Of a stretch of 64,000 nt of DNA, positions 19,280 to 60,583 are shown one piece after another. Every line of letters starts with the position of its first letter. Within the stretch, counting starts at the first letter, position 1. The stretch spans positions 2,604,001-2,668,000 of the forward strand of contig NZ_PHQX01000001.1 of assembly GCF_002803515.1 (NCBI RefSeq). The letters are read 5' to 3'. The position numbers and the translations under genes are program-made. The notes under the pieces are model-generated. The model was not told where the DNA came from and ran no database searches. It saw only the letters and a program-made list of their open reading frames with translations. Source of the DNA: Stenotrophomonas lactitubi. GTDB taxonomy: Bacteria; Pseudomonadota; Gammaproteobacteria; Xanthomonadales; Xanthomonadaceae.

Positions 19280-19355
19280 GGCCGAGTAGCTCAGTTGGTA
19301 GAGCAGGGGATTGAAAATCCCCGTGTCGGCGGTTCGATTCCGTCCTCGGCCACCA
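19280..19355 (+). tRNA. tRNA-Phe (anticodon GAA), copy 1
   Basis: A 76-nt cloverleaf: acceptor GGCCGAG/CTCGGCC, D arm GCTCAGTTGGTAGAGC, anticodon loop TTGAAAA giving GAA, T arm GGCGGTTCGATTCCGTC, encoded CCA. It is identical to the copy at 19397. Confidence 0.97.
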
Positions 19356-19362
19356 CTTTCGA

Positions 19363-19389
19363 AGACCTGCAGAAATGCAGGTCTTTTTT
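19363..19389 (+). terminator. Intrinsic terminator after tRNA-Phe copy 1
   Basis: AGACCTGCA / TGCAGGTCT with a GAAA loop, followed by a T run. The same hairpin recurs after copy 2, so each tRNA has its own terminator. Confidence 0.9.
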
Positions 19390-19396
19390 TCTACAT

Positions 19397-19472
19397 GGCC
19401 GAGTAGCTCAGTTGGTAGAGCAGGGGATTGAAAATCCCCGTGTCGGCGGTTCGATTCCGTCCTCGGCCACCA
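19397..19472 (+). tRNA. tRNA-Phe (anticodon GAA), copy 2
   Basis: Sequence identical to copy 1 over the full 76 nt, with encoded CCA. Together with the downstream terminator it forms a 117-bp tandem duplication. No separate promoter is visible in the 42-bp gap, so it depends on read-through from copy 1 or a promoter I cannot see. Confidence 0.97.
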
Positions 19473-41162: not shown

Positions 41163-43064
41163 TTACGCGCCCTCGGCCTGGAGCCGCTCGGTGAAAGCCT
41201 GGAGGCTCATGCTGCCGAGATCTTCGCCAGAACGCGTACGCACCGCCACAGCGCCGTTTTCCTTCTCGCGGTCACCAATGACCAGCAGGTACGGCACGCG
41301 CTGCAGCGTGTGCTCGCGAATCTTATAGCCGATCTTCTCGTTACGCAAATCGGCGCTGACGCGGAAGCCTTGATCCGCAAGGCTTTTGGTCACGGCAGAC
41401 ACGTATTCAGCCTGCGCATCGGTGATATTGGCCACCACCACCTGGGTCGGCGCCAGCCAGGCCGGGAACTGGCCGGCATGGTGCTCGATCAGGATGCCCA
41501 GGAAACGCTCCATCGAGCCGACGATGGCCCGGTGCAGCATCACCGGATGCTTCTTCTGGCTGTTTTCGTCCACGTATTCAGCGCCCAGACGGCCAGGCAT
41601 CATGAAATCGACCTGCATGGTGCCCAGCTGCCAGGTGCGGCCGATGGCGTCCTTCAGGTGGTACTCGATCTTCGGGCCGTAGAAGGCGCCCTCGCCCGGC
41701 AGTTCCTGCCATTCCACCCCGCAGCTGGACAGTGCCGAGCGCAGCGCGCCCTCCGCCTTGTCCCAGGTGGCGTCATCGCCCAGGCGCGATTCGGGGCGCA
41801 GCGCGATCTTGACCTGGATCTCCTCGAAGCCGAAGTGCTGGTACACCGCCAGCGCCTGCTGGTGGAACGCGGTCACTTCCGCCTCGACCTGGTCTTCGGT
41901 GCAGAACACGTGACCGTCGTCCTGGGTGAAGCCACGCACGCGCAGGATGCCGTGCAGCGCGCCGGAGGGCTCGTTGCGGTGGCAGGCGCCAAACTCACCG
42001 TAGCGGATCGGCAGATCGCGGTAGCTGTGCAGCCCCTGGTTGAACACCTGCACGTGGCCCGGGCAGTTCATCGGCTTGAGCGCGTAGGTACGCTTCTCCG
42101 ACTCGGTGAAGAACATCGCGTCCTGGTAGTTGTCCCAGTGGCCCGACTTCTGCCACAGCGACACGTCCAGGATCTGCGGGCAGCGCACTTCGCCGTAGCC
42201 GGTGCTGCGGTACACCTTGCGCATGTACTGCTCGACCACCTGCCACAGCGCCCAGCCCTTCGGGTGCCAGAACACCAGGCCCGGGGCCTCTTCCTGCAGG
42301 TGGAACAGGTCCTGCTGCTTGCCGATGCGACGGTGGTCGCGCATCTCCGCTTCTTCGATGCGCTTGATGTACGCATCGAGCTGCTTCTTGTCGGCCCAGG
42401 CGGTGCCGTAGACGCGCTGCAGCTGCTCGTTCTGCGCGTCGCCGCGCCAATAGGCGCCGGAAATGCGGGTCAGCTTGAAGGCCTTCAGGAAACGCGTGTT
42501 GGGCACGTGCGGGCCACGGCACATGTCCACGTATTCCTGGTGGTAGTACATGCCCATCGCCTGGATCTCCGGCGACATGTCTTCGATCAGGCGCAGCTTG
42601 TAGTCCTCGCCACGGGCCTTGAAGATCTCGATGACTTCCGCACGCGGGGTCACCTTCTTGATGACGTCGTAATCCTGCGCGATCAGCTCGCCCATGCGCT
42701 TTTCGATCGCCGCCATGTCTTCGGGGGTGAACGGGCGCTCGGAATAGATGTCGTAGTAGAAGCCCTCGGCGATCACCGGGCCGATGACCATCTTCACGTC
42801 CGGATAGAGCTGCTTGACCGCGTGGCCGACCAGGTGGGCGCTGGAGTGGCGGATGATTTCCACGCCCTCCTCGTCCTTGGCGGTGATGATGCGCAGGGAG
42901 GCGTCGTGGTCGATGACGTCACTGGCATCGACCAGCACGCCATCCACCGAACCGGCGATGGTGGCCTTGGCCAGGCCGGCGCCGATCGACTGGGCGACGT
43001 CCATGACGCTGACGGGATGTTCGAATTCGCGGCGGCTGCCGTCGGGAAGGGTAATCGTGATCAT
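41163..43064 (-). CDS. thrS: Threonine-tRNA ligase
   Basis: ThrS charges tRNA-Thr and edits mischarged Ser. The 633-residue protein has the N-terminal TGS domain ([20 protein letters not shown]), the editing domain with [10 protein letters not shown] and the class II core (motif 2 region [22 protein letters not shown], motif 3 [18 protein letters not shown]), then the anticodon domain. The start at 43064 is chosen because upstream in-frame sequence lies inside the terminator region. An attenuator with a Thr-rich leader peptide precedes it (43132-43295). Confidence 0.97.
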
Positions 43065-43131
43065 TGCAATGGCTTCATGCGGGGCCCGCCGGGCGGGCTG
43101 GAAAGCGCTCCCGGGCCAACGCCCGGGCAAT

Positions 43132-43154
43132 AAAAAAGCGCCACGAGGGCGCCT
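43132..43154 (-). terminator. Intrinsic terminator in the thrS leader
   Basis: On the minus strand AGGCGCC pairs with GGCGCTT around CTCGT and is followed by TTTTTTA. It lies 25 bases after the stop codon of a Thr-rich leader peptide and 68 bases before the thrS start, the layout of an amino-acid attenuator. Confidence 0.75.
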
Positions 43155-43178
43155 GGAATGCAGGGCCTTCGGGGCAGG

Positions 43179-43205
43179 TCAACAGTGGGCGGTGGTAGTG
43201 CTCAT
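43179..43205 (-). CDS. thrS leader peptide (Thr-rich)
   Basis: A short frame encodes MSTTTAHC, with three consecutive Thr codons (ACT ACC ACC). It starts about 55 bases after the predicted transcription start and ends 25 bases before the terminator at 43132-43154. This is the classic form of a leader peptide whose ribosome stalls when charged tRNA-Thr is scarce, letting RNA polymerase read into thrS. The Shine-Dalgarno sequence is weak (GAG), and a matching antiterminator is not obvious by eye. Confidence 0.6.
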   Translation of the reverse strand: MSTTTAHC

Positions 43206-43266
43206 GTCGCACGCTCGGCCGGCGCAGTGCGCGGGCCACCTTGGTTCCAGGATGTGGTTGCCGATG

Positions 43267-43295
43267 ATCTTAAACCAGTGGCCGACAAAGCCCAA
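43267..43295 (-). promoter_or_regulatory. thrS: Promoter of the thrS leader
   Basis: On the minus strand TTGGGC (43295-43290), a 17-bp spacer and TAAGAT (43272-43267) form a sigma-70-like promoter. Transcription would start near 43260, giving a leader of about 195 bases before thrS. Confidence 0.55.
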
Positions 43296-43482
43296 GCGGC
43301 GCCTGAATGGCGCTCGCTGGCGGCGTGAAAACGCAATGATTACCATGTGCGCGCAGCCAGCCTCCGTGCCGGCCTGCCCGCTTCCCCCAGGACCCTGCAA
43401 TGCGCCACCCGCCCCGACCGGCGCCTGCCGGTCCCGCCCGTGCCCCGCGTTCACCGGCCGTATGCCGGGCTCGGAGCCCGCA

Positions 43483-44052: not shown

Positions 44053-45612
44053 ATGAAATTCAGTTCACAGACCCTGCGCACGTTCACCACCCTGCACACC
44101 TGGGTTGGCCTGGTCGCCGGCTTCGGGCTGTTCGTGGCGTTCTATGCCGGCGCGCTGACTCTGTTCCACCACGATCTCCCGCTGTGGCAGACGCCTGGCG
44201 CAGCAACCGCGTTGCCGGCCGGCCTGGATGACGCCCAGTACCTGCTCGACGATGTACTGGCCACCCACGCCGAAGCGCGTCGCCACGTTGGCATGACCTT
44301 CCCCGGCGCCGATCATCCGCAGCCGCTGGCCTACTGGCAGGCCGAAGACGGCAGCTGGCGCTATGCATGGCCGGGACAGACCGGCGGCAGTCCGACGCCA
44401 CCGCAGACCGGGCTGGCCGAACTGGTCAACGAACTGCATTACAGCCTGGGCCTGCCGGTGGCCGGCATCTACGTGATGGGCATCGTCAGCCTGCTGTACG
44501 GCATGGCCCTGCTCAGCGGACTGGTGATCCACCTGCCCAAGCTGCTGGGCGATCTGTTCGCGCTGCGCCCGGGCCGCAATCTGAAGCAGCAATGGCAGGA
44601 CGCGCACAACGTGATCGGCGTGCTCAGCCTGCCGTTCCATCTGATGTTCGCGGTGACTGGCGCCCTGCTCTGCCTGGTGTTCATGCAGATGGCCGTACTC
44701 AATCCCCTGATCTACGACGGCAAGGCACTGCAGGCGGTACCGACGGCGATGGATACCGCGCCGCTGCGCGAAGCCAGTGGCATCCCGGCTGCACCGGGCA
44801 GTCTGCGCGAACTTCATGCACGGGCGCTGGAAGTGGCGCGCGCGCAAGGTGTGGCCAACTTTGAACCGGCCTACCTGAAACTGGCCAATGGCGGTGATGC
44901 CAACGCGACCATCGAGATCACCGGCGAGGCCAGCGGCACGCTCGGCCCGCTCGGCGCTGTCGCGCTGGATGTCGAAAGCGGCCGCGTGCTGGCCAGCCAG
45001 CTGCCTGGCCAACGCGATGCCAACCACGCCACGCTCAGTGCCGCCTATGCCCTGCACTTCGGCGAATTCGGCAATGGCGTGGTGGTCTGGCTGTACTTCC
45101 TGCTCGGCCTCGGCGGCGCCTTCCTGTTCTATTCGGGCAACCTGCTGTGGATCGAGTCGCGCCGCAAGCGCCGTCAGCCGCAGCAGTCACGCGCGGCCGT
45201 CAACATGGCGCGGGCCACGGTGGGTTTCTGCATCGGCCTGTGCGTGGCGATCTCGGTGGCCTTCGTCGCCGCACTGGTGCTGGAGCGGGTCGCCCCTGCA
45301 CAGGTCGACCACGGCATCCGCTGGGCCTGCTTCCTGACCTGGGCGGCGTGTGCGCTGTGGGCAGCCCTGCGCCGCCCGGCGCAGGCGGCGCGCGAGCTGC
45401 TGTGGGCCGCAGCGATCAGCACCGCGCTGGTGCCGGTGGCACACGGCGCCCTCAACGGTGACTGGCTGTGGTTGGCCGCCGCACGCGGCCACTGGCCGTT
45501 GTTCTGGATCGATGCGATGGCACTGGCGATGGCCTTTGGCTTTGCCCGCCTGGCGTATGCGAGCCAGCGGCGGGCCCGCAACGGTGACCCCAACAGCGTG
45601 TGGGCGAACTGA
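44053..45612 (+). CDS. PepSY-associated transmembrane protein (iron-regulated type)
   Basis: A 519-residue inner-membrane protein with PepSY-TM architecture: a first helix (TLHTWVGLVAGFGLFVAFYA), two periplasmic PepSY-like segments, and helices with conserved His and Trp (NHATLSAAYALHFGEFGN, WLYFLLGLGGAFLFYSGNLL). Relatives lie next to TonB siderophore receptors and are thought to reduce or handle ferric siderophores in the periplasm; this is inference for this protein. No TonB receptor is next to it here. Confidence 0.85.
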   Translation: MKFSSQTLRTFTTLHTWVGLVAGFGLFVAFYAGALTLFHHDLPLWQTPGAATALPAGLDDAQYLLDDVLATHAEARRHVGMTFPGADHPQPLAYWQAEDGSWRYAWPGQTGGSPTPPQTGLAELVNELHYSLGLPVAGIYVMGIVSLLYGMALLSGLVIHLPKLLGDLFALRPGRNLKQQWQDAHNVIGVLSLPFHLMFAVTGALLCLVFMQMAVLNPLIYDGKALQAVPTAMDTAPLREASGIPAAPGSLRELHARALEVARAQGVANFEPAYLKLANGGDANATIEITGEASGTLGPLGAVALDVESGRVLASQLPGQRDANHATLSAAYALHFGEFGNGVVVWLYFLLGLGGAFLFYSGNLLWIESRRKRRQPQQSRAAVNMARATVGFCIGLCVAISVAFVAALVLERVAPAQVDHGIRWACFLTWAACALWAALRRPAQAARELLWAAAISTALVPVAHGALNGDWLWLAAARGHWPLFWIDAMALAMAFGFARLAYASQRRARNGDPNSVWAN

Positions 45613-45671: not shown

Positions 45672-46862
45672 TCAGTCGCCGACGCGGGCCTTCTGCCACG
45701 GAGCCAGCATGGCGTTGAGCAGGCTGGCCTGCTCGTCGTCACCGGTCAGCTCCCACATGAAGACACCGGCCAGGCCCTGCTCGCGCGCGAACTGCGCCCG
45801 CAGCCCGATCGAACGCGGGTCTTCATAGCTGATGAAAATCTTCTCGGTCGGGTTGTACAACCACGGGCTCTGCGCCTGCGGCTGCCAGTGCTTGTTCCAG
45901 CCCGGCTGGTCGAGATAGCGTGCCTTGATCACCCGCCAGTCACCGGCATCGGCCGGAGCGCTGTAGGCCTGGTACAAGCCATCTGCCGACTCGCCGGTGA
46001 CCTTGAAACCGCGCCCATAGAACGGCACGCCCAGCACCAGCTTGCTCGCGGGTACGCCATGCTCGCGGTAGTACTGCACGGCACCGGCGACGTTGTTCCA
46101 GCGCCGCAGTTCCGGCGCCAGCGGATCGGCAGGCACTTCATGCAGGGGGGCATTGAAGGTCGACACCGCCGAGAAGCCGGTGCCCATGTCGTAGCTCATC
46201 AGGTTGATGAAATCGAACACCTTGGCCAGCGCCGGCAGATCGTAGCTGGCGACGGGATCGTACGGACCGTCGGTCTGCAGGCGACCTGCCGCCAGCGCCG
46301 CAGTCAGCAGCATCGGCTGCCCCGCTTTTCTGCCGCGAGCATCCAGCGCCACGCGGAAAGCCTGCGCAAGCTTGGTCAGGTTGGCACGGTCCTGCGGACG
46401 GTGCGCCAGTTCCTTCGGGCCACCGCTGACCGGGAACTCCCAGTCGATGTCCACGCCATCGAAGCTGCCGGCATGACGCTCGAAGAACAACGCCATGCAC
46501 GAGTCGACCAGGCGCCTGCGGCTGGCCTCGGTCAGCGCAGCGTCGGAGAATCCGCCCGCGCCCCAGCCACCGATCGAAATCAACGTGCGCAGATGCGGAT
46601 GATGGCGCTTGAGCTCGGCCAATGCGGCGAAGTTGGCCGGCGCCTCGGCTCCGATCGCACAGCGCCCGTCCTCGATGGTGGAGAACGCATAGAACAGATG
46701 GGTGAGTCGTTCGGCCGGGACGCTCGATACCGGATAGCGCTCGGCCGAACCGCCAGGGTAGTACGCACCGAAGATCGGCGTTTGCGCGGGTTGCGCCTGC
46801 GCGGCAATGGGCAGGGTACCGGCGATCAGCACTGCAAGTACGGCCAAGGTCTGGCGGAACAT
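45672..46862 (-). CDS. Glycoside hydrolase family 18 (chitinase-like)
   Basis: A 396-residue secreted GH18 enzyme. The signal peptide (LAVLAVLIAGTLPIAAQA) precedes the TIM barrel with the catalytic DxxDxDxE motif in FDGVDIDWEFP, strand 3 motif LRTLISIGGWGAGGFSDA and later YDMGTGF and YGRGFKV. It likely cleaves chitin or chitooligosaccharides. The start at 46862 gives a normal signal peptide. The gene is monocistronic. Confidence 0.93.
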   Translation of the reverse strand: MFRQTLAVLAVLIAGTLPIAAQAQPAQTPIFGAYYPGGSAERYPVSSVPAERLTHLFYAFSTIEDGRCAIGAEAPANFAALAELKRHHPHLRTLISIGGWGAGGFSDAALTEASRRRLVDSCMALFFERHAGSFDGVDIDWEFPVSGGPKELAHRPQDRANLTKLAQAFRVALDARGRKAGQPMLLTAALAAGRLQTDGPYDPVASYDLPALAKVFDFINLMSYDMGTGFSAVSTFNAPLHEVPADPLAPELRRWNNVAGAVQYYREHGVPASKLVLGVPFYGRGFKVTGESADGLYQAYSAPADAGDWRVIKARYLDQPGWNKHWQPQAQSPWLYNPTEKIFISYEDPRSIGLRAQFAREQGLAGVFMWELTGDDEQASLLNAMLAPWQKARVGD

Positions 46863-60345: not shown

Positions 60346-60422
60346 TGGTAGCGGGGGCAGGATTTGAACCTGCGACCTTCGGGTTATGAGCCCGACGAGC
60401 TGCCAGACTGCTCCACCCCGCA
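60346..60422 (-). tRNA. Initiator tRNA-fMet (CAT), copy A
   Basis: A 77-nt cloverleaf with encoded CCA. The three G-C pairs of the anticodon stem (GGG/CCC around CTCATAA) and the A11-U24 D-stem pair mark it as the initiator. Position 1 is U and position 72 is U, so the 1-72 pair is broken, as required for initiators, but as U-U rather than the C-A of E. coli. It has its own promoter (60434-60462) just upstream. Confidence 0.95.
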
Positions 60423-60433
60423 TCAGAAGCGGA

Positions 60434-60462
60434 ATTATGAGGGATAACTTCAAAACCTGCAA
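60434..60462 (-). promoter_or_regulatory. Promoter of initiator tRNA copy A
   Basis: On the minus strand TTGCAG (60462-60457), a 17-bp spacer and CATAAT (60439-60434) end 11 bases before the mature tRNA. Copy A can thus be expressed without copy B. Confidence 0.7.
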
Positions 60463-60506
60463 GCTTTTCCTCATTCATCGAATTGGTTGGAGCCGATTCG
60501 ATGTGT

Positions 60507-60583
60507 TGGTAGCGGGGGCAGGATTTGAACCTGCGACCTTCGGGTTATGAGCCCGACGAGCTGCCAGACTGCTCCACCCCGCA
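60507..60583 (-). tRNA. Initiator tRNA-fMet (CAT), copy B
   Basis: Sequence identical to copy A over 77 nt, with the same U1-U72 mismatch and encoded CCA. No terminator is visible in the 84-bp gap to copy A, so both may also form one transcript from the strong promoter at 60679-60707. Confidence 0.95.

Follow-up and report, generated by a model that had tools for sequence, protein, structure and literature searches.

The leader of thrS in Stenotrophomonas lactitubi is very probably a leader-peptide transcription attenuator that couples transcription of this threonyl-tRNA synthetase gene to the supply of Thr-tRNA. The comparative sequence evidence on which this reading is based places a conserved block and a short frame before thrS in 190 of 200 genomes of the same family, so that the threonine-codon mini-ORF and terminator described in an earlier note on this DNA are real; the pair of Thr codons is missing from 12 of the 190 genomes, and the terminator U-run from 40 of 200 unique leaders. 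Sequence comparison or modelling identified the leader ORF with its Thr codons, the arrangement of Shine-Dalgarno sequence, hairpin and start codon, the terminator, and a pairing that competes with it.

Organization of the thrS leader

Within the window (the whole stretch of 64,000 nucleotides that was analysed), the leader runs on the minus strand from 43295 to 43064 and comprises the following features.

43290..43295, minus strand: candidate -35 hexamer TTGGGC, read by eye and absent from the consensus scan.
43267..43276, minus strand: -10 region GGTTTAAGAT, holding TAAGAT (43272-43267); this or a close variant recurs in same-genus leaders.
43237..43241, minus strand: AGGUG, the likely Shine-Dalgarno sequence of the leader ORF; an SD-like word is found here in 197 of 200 unique leaders.
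43217..43237, minus strand: hairpin P1, separating the SD-like word from the start codon and identified by covariation.
43206..43216, minus strand: GAGCGTGCGAC, strongly conserved, directly 5' of the leader start codon.
43205-43179, minus strand: leader ORF ATGAGCACTACCACCGCCCACTGTTGA, encoding MSTTTAHC plus stop, read from the sequence.
43139..43176, minus strand: predicted antiterminator hairpin; when the window's own leader is folded, the post-stop segment pairs with the loop and 5' arm of the terminator.
43132..43154, minus strand: putative intrinsic terminator, a hairpin AGGCGCC-CTCGT-GGCGCTT (43154-43136) of 7 pairs running into T6 (43137-43132).
41163..43064, minus strand: thrS, threonyl-tRNA synthetase, with its ATG at 43064 (Pfam TGS, tRNA_SAD, tRNA-synt_2b, HGTP_anticodon).

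The earlier note had read a promoter from TTGGGC and TAAGAT, which are 17 nt apart. A consensus scan of 901 nt reported no promoter. Of 53 same-genus leaders, 51 have a -10-like box of the form GGTTTA[AC][GCT]AT (GGTCTAAAAT or GCTAGAATC) whose 3' end lies 55-63 nt 5' of the leader start (8 further same-genus leaders, fetched later, were left out of this count). Between TAAGAT and the leader ATG frame lies CAAGGTGGCCCGCG. The hairpin and T run noted earlier before thrS proved to be the sole hit of a terminator scan across the same 901 nt (0.4 expected, s.d. 0.6). In its own genome, the leader block gave a single significant match (E 1.4e-22), the runner-up having an E-value of 0.35.

On the same strand as thrS, its 3' side carries frames that we take to be infC, rpmI, and rplT, and pheS and pheT (Pfam) follow. 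Termination at 43132 could also lower expression of these downstream cluster genes, unless they have promoters of their own. The start codon of the infC-like frame appears to be a rare ATC (41098-41096, minus strand), with GGGAG (41111-41107) before it; rare infC start codons in E. coli are linked to autoregulation by IF3. Neighboring genes encode a family 18 glycosyl hydrolase (45672-46862, minus strand) and a PepSY-associated TM protein (44053-45612, plus strand). Elsewhere in the window are two tandem tRNA-Phe genes (19280-19472, plus strand) and two tandem tRNA-Met genes (60346-60583, minus strand).

Conservation of the leader ORF and its threonine codons

The thrS search covered 61 genomes of the genus (61 positive) and 149 of the family (145 positive), with 6 shared, and the thrS upstream region was read in all of the resulting 200 distinct thrS-bearing genomes. 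Among the 190 that carry the block, the frame has 8 codons in 155, and 5, 6, 7, or 9 codons in 1, 11, 21, and 2 genomes, respectively. Comparison across relatives, as suggested earlier, found the Thr codons conserved: Thr occupies codon 3 in 189 genomes, codons 3 and 4 in 178, and codons 3-5 in 99. Thus, of the three consecutive Thr codons that had first drawn attention to the frame, the first two are conserved and the third is variable. The 12 frames without the pair at codons 3-4 read MSTIFAHC, METCSHRH, MSTSANRS, MRTRSRH, MDTPLRHR, MSPPIAHR, MVTSASR, MSTRPFS, MRTPRH, MRTIRFPR, MDTGPDQP, and MVTSR.

A second sample consisted of 200 unique leaders from the two families in which the leader occurs (its size equals that of the genome set by chance). 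The pair is present in 182 of them, with codon 4 spelled ACC in 153, ACG in 18, ACT in 6, and ACA in 5; because all four Thr codons occur there, it is the amino acid that is kept at this position while its spelling changes. At codon 2 the amino acid varies freely. Codon 3 is spelled ACT in 195 of the 200 leaders, although ACT makes up only 9 of the 115 Thr codons counted in five window genes. Leaders of the second family mostly read GCA ACT ACN at codons 2-4.

By eye, the 10 family genomes without the block fall into three kinds. One (L356) has a variant in which hairpin P1 is gone and AGAGGTG stands directly 5' of an 8-codon frame, MGTTTYHL. Five from one genus (L383, L384, L386, L388, L391) have a different frame of 7-8 codons, MTRNG.. 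or MTRTG.., followed by a terminator; this is possibly a replacement leader with fewer Thr codons (one or two). The remaining four (L092, L104, L338, L390) have no leader visible upstream of thrS.

A predicted competing pairing and its modelled dependence on ribosome position

No clear antiterminator had been visible in the first reading, which proposed folding the leader for alternative structures. Ribosome-mask folding, spacer shuffles, and terminator swaps now point to a competing antiterminator, although the fold of the whole leader is not significantly better than that of shuffles (z -0.81 and -1.31). In the window, UGCC.CGA.GGCCCUG of the post-stop segment is predicted to pair with CAGG.GCC.UCG.GGCG of the terminator 5' arm and loop.

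For the ribosome-mask folding, an equilibrium model in which the ribosome footprint is kept unpaired, we used the 147 unique leaders of the family that have both a U-run and a hairpin. The mean modelled probability of the terminator was 0.36 with no ribosome. Placing codon 4 in the A site lowered it to 0.29 (12-nt footprint edge) or 0.22 (15-nt edge), and placing the stop codon there raised it to 0.58 or 0.66. Within this equilibrium model, the terminator was likelier at the stop than at codon 4 in 114 of the 147 leaders with the 12-nt edge and in 131 with the 15-nt edge. The difference was lost when spacers were shuffled, the probability then being 0.66-0.71 in both ribosome states; an earlier run with 99 leaders agrees. 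Equilibrium folding alone may account for the modelled tendency of the untranslated family leader towards read-through.

For the window's own leader, the terminator probability was 0.000 with the ribosome stalled; with the ribosome at the stop it was 0.00 (10-nt edge), 0.02 (12-14 nt), and 0.69-0.91 (15-18 nt). Its switching therefore depends on the footprint, because only an edge at least 15 nt past the A site yields the terminator at the stop. In the second family (28 leaders) the terminator dominates at either ribosome position (0.64 and 0.88; 0.59 and 0.87), and its probability was the higher one at the stop in 23 or 25 leaders; shuffled spacers gave 0.81 and 0.75, and 0.73 and 0.73.

Spacers are predicted to bind their native terminators more strongly than foreign ones (-16.99 versus -15.77 kcal/mol). 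The native spacer ranked above half in 91 of 122 cases, and in 63 of 87 after similar spacers had been removed (p about 8e-6). The shuffled-spacer and swapped-terminator tests were used because the register of the antiterminator pairing differs between lineages; relatedness is not fully removed in them, and the spacer shuffles preserve base counts only. In fixed columns, the antiterminator showed no covariation signal (82.4 versus 82.1% of cells paired; 188 of 500 shuffles as high); the terminator helix passed the same kind of test (97.1% of cells paired; 0 of 500 shuffles as high). The choice of leaders for alignment A2 favors a tidy alignment: it holds 50 of 60 listed leaders, the 10 with differently built terminators having been excluded, and the list itself took in only leaders whose U-run lies 38-46 nt past the stop.

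The U-run is present in 160 of the 200 unique leaders, in 146 of these at 33-50 nt after the stop. The 40 in which it is absent by the criterion used retain the ORF; some have interrupted runs and others have none, such as L040 and the identical-looking L280 of Xanthomonas codiaei. The same combination of a kept Thr leader ORF and a missing terminator U-run is seen in L048-L051. Such leaders may have lost control, or may be controlled by Rho or at translation. They are also what would be expected if the leader were a real upstream ORF that acts through Rho-dependent termination or translation instead of through an intrinsic terminator. We consider that explanation very unlikely, since most leaders have the U-run, the terminator helix is kept, and the terminator probability tracks ribosome position in our folding model only with native spacers.

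A probable split ribosome-binding site

The leader ORF had been described as having a weak ribosome-binding site; it looks split instead. Upstream of the start codon the order is AGGUG, hairpin P1, and GAGYGUGYGAC, and AGGUG, about 32 nt upstream, is joined to the start by the covarying P1. The first SD-like word 5' of P1 is AGGTG in 157 of the 200 unique leaders, AGGA in 17, GGGTG in 15, AGGAG in 4, GGTG in 2, and AGGT in 2, with none in 3. Counted from the 3' side of the word's fourth base, the start codon lies 28-41 nt away (median 32), and removal of the predicted helix leaves 11 unpaired nucleotides between the word and the start codon in 172 of 197 leaders. In the 76 leaders of alignment A1 (from 86 listed, 10 close relatives of kept ones having been left out), P1 shows changes on both sides in 5 of 7 pairs and has 96.0% of cells paired; in 500 shuffles, none of the five measures ever reached the observed value. 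The support for P1 is covariation, because the folding energy of the SD-to-start segment is only slightly better than that of its own shuffles (mean z -0.65; 29% below -1).

Leaders that depart from this layout have an SD-like word close to the start codon. Two of the three without the upstream word (L118 and L360) carry GAGGTG 4 nt 5' of the start codon, and L356, which lacks P1, carries AGGTG 5 nt 5' of it. Judged from these sequences, AGGUG is probably the Shine-Dalgarno sequence, brought to the start codon by P1. The anti-Shine-Dalgarno sequence of these bacteria is assumed; two patterns for the 16S tail had no match in G000, and a third had none in three relatives. Since the apparently split site occurs in both families and is repaired in a few lineages by a start-adjacent Shine-Dalgarno sequence, the idea of a hairpin-bridged site is testable.

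Running into and including the start codon, GTG.GACATG is invariant in all 76 aligned leaders; because G[TC]G[CT]GACATG was the pattern by which leaders were retrieved, its invariance is partly selection. GUGYGAC appears not to be the Shine-Dalgarno sequence or, in the family, to pair with the post-stop segment. A protector helix between the pre-start stretch and the post-stop segment is unsupported in the family (native -8.35 versus shuffled -9.61 kcal/mol; 120 leaders) and has weak support in the second family (-10.22 versus shuffled -8.69 kcal/mol; 38 leaders). That AGGUG is there mainly so that AGGUGG can pair with the Thr codons (GGUGG with CUACC) was rejected by eye: L097, L100, and L113 (AGGAG or AGGAA) have lost this pairing and kept an SD-like word, and L065, L069, L087, and L088 have changed Thr codons with GGTG still present. 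We think it unlikely that the leader start is itself a regulated device, in which the split Shine-Dalgarno sequence would be joined by an invariant GUGYGAC recognized by a factor (ThrRS or something ribosome-linked) and thrS would be set by two signals, ribosome entry into the leader and stalling at the Thr codons.

Strong nucleotide conservation 5' of the start codon would also fit an operator of the E. coli kind, in which ThrRS, bound to a tRNA-like RNA, acts as the repressor and the mini-ORF is secondary. The variable base in AG-N-GUG is C, T, A, or G (L118, L360), and by eye NGU resembles the anticodons for Thr. In the consensus fold of the conserved block, however, P1 is accompanied by a short helix between GUG and the start region; the fold contains no anticodon-like hairpin and no 7-nt loop presenting NGU. 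Neither the synonymous changes in the Thr codons nor the conserved ORF length would be required by an operator alone, and the block is separated from the thrS start by the terminator and a spacer of variable length. We regard it as very unlikely that the conserved block is such an operator.

Distribution of the leader

A covariance model of the 5' part of the leader matched 103 of 250 genomes of the order (E 0.001): 54 from the same family, 48 from a second family, which is probably Rhodanobacteraceae, and one from a third (G251, 86% complete). In a sample of the class, the same model matched 5 of 369 genomes, all in the two families, and 364 had no match; the order and class scans used stricter filters, with which weak matches are lost. 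Of 40 stretches read from the order-level matches, 38 hold the block pattern. The match in the third family (L197, from G251) lies on a short contig, and the block occurs as well in L291, from a metagenome bin labelled Rhizobium; mis-binning is the likely cause, although these may be transfers.

A pattern scan of named public contigs found at least 80 loci. Among the matches listed are loci from Stenotrophomonas, Xanthomonas, Pseudoxanthomonas, Lysobacter, Luteimonas, Thermomonas, Arenimonas, Rehaibacterium, Rhodanobacter, Dyella, Luteibacter, Frateuria, Fulvimonas, Mizugakiibacter, and some unplaced bins. They give no independent evidence on codons, because the search pattern contained the start block and ACTAC. 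In 78 of the 80 listed loci thrS lies downstream of the block, and the two remaining stretches end too early to tell. A tRNA-like 3' end (by eye tRNA-Val, GAC) adjoins the leader upstream in L098, L101, L105, L110, L114-L116, L118, L356, and L383-L391; a tRNA promoter may therefore reach the leader in those relatives.

With its own -10 box and its own terminator, the stretch might be thought an independent small RNA that lies before thrS by accident. Its position before thrS at nearly all of these loci and in 190 of the 200 family genomes argues against this, and such an RNA would give no reason for an ORF with Thr codons, so this explanation has very little chance of being right; a terminated leader RNA may nevertheless have a second role. 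Chance occurrence of a short frame and a hairpin without function was a concern while the reading rested on one sequence with an apparently weak ribosome-binding site and a negative promoter scan, but conservation across two families refutes it.

Proposed mechanism

We infer transcription start and stop, translation, stalling, and the response to threonine as follows. RNA polymerase would start near 43260. A ribosome would bind AGGUG, placed near the start codon by P1, and translate the 8 codons. When charged Thr-tRNA is short, the ribosome would wait at codons 3-4, leaving the post-stop segment free to pair with the 5' arm and loop of the terminator. With this antiterminator formed, transcription would continue into thrS.

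Comparison with known systems

Rfam 15 gave no match in the window at gathering thresholds. At E up to 5, the region 43050-43330 had one match, to an unrelated family, and none to a T-box or to the Thr operon leader (which we take to be the Rfam family Thr_leader); if the attenuator reading is right, the thrS leader would add an RNA family to those in Rfam 15. A search of open-licence papers listed none that describes, for these bacteria, a leader peptide ahead of thrS. An earlier prediction in the literature is possible; the work of Vitreschak and others from 2004 is said to be the main comparative study of proteobacterial attenuators.

In E. coli, thrS itself is controlled by an operator at which ThrRS represses translation by binding a tRNA-like RNA, the textbook case of a synthetase repressing its own mRNA. 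The controlled gene is the same, but the E. coli system is not known to have a leader ORF or a terminator. In Firmicutes, T-box elements before thrS sense Thr-tRNA and act by antitermination, binding the tRNA directly without a ribosome; they share with the attenuator proposed here the control of thrS by Thr-tRNA and differ in dispensing with the ribosome. A hairpin that brings a Shine-Dalgarno sequence, distant in the primary sequence, near the start codon is found in gene 38 of phage T4. The predicted bridge in the thrS leader is similar, with the difference that it lies in an attenuator leader and is kept over two bacterial families.

Amino-acid operons of proteobacteria (trp, his, thr, and others) have leader-peptide attenuators, which the thrS leader resembles in its short ORF with cognate codons and in a predicted antiterminator and terminator that share a segment. 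It differs in that the gene downstream encodes a tRNA synthetase, that the control codons are the third and fourth of only 8, and that the Shine-Dalgarno sequence is probably split from the start by a hairpin. For comparison, the E. coli trp leader peptide has 14 residues with control codons 10-11, and blocked translation of the leader favors termination (PMC1183508). An untranslated leader of the thrS family tends in our model to read through, whereas that of trp tends to terminate.

A synthetase operon attenuated via a leader peptide with cognate codons is known in E. coli pheM-pheST, which differs from the case proposed here in the amino acid (Phe versus Thr); in S. lactitubi, pheST lies downstream of thrS in the same cluster. 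In Bacillus, His leader peptides have been predicted before hisS and hisZ, in a text that makes no mention of thrS (PMC2965389). These too are predicted cognate leader peptides before a synthetase gene, in another phylum and for another amino acid. If the thrS leader is indeed an attenuator, two neighboring families of Gammaproteobacteria control thrS by attenuation driven by Thr-tRNA, unlike E. coli, and do so with a very short leader ORF.
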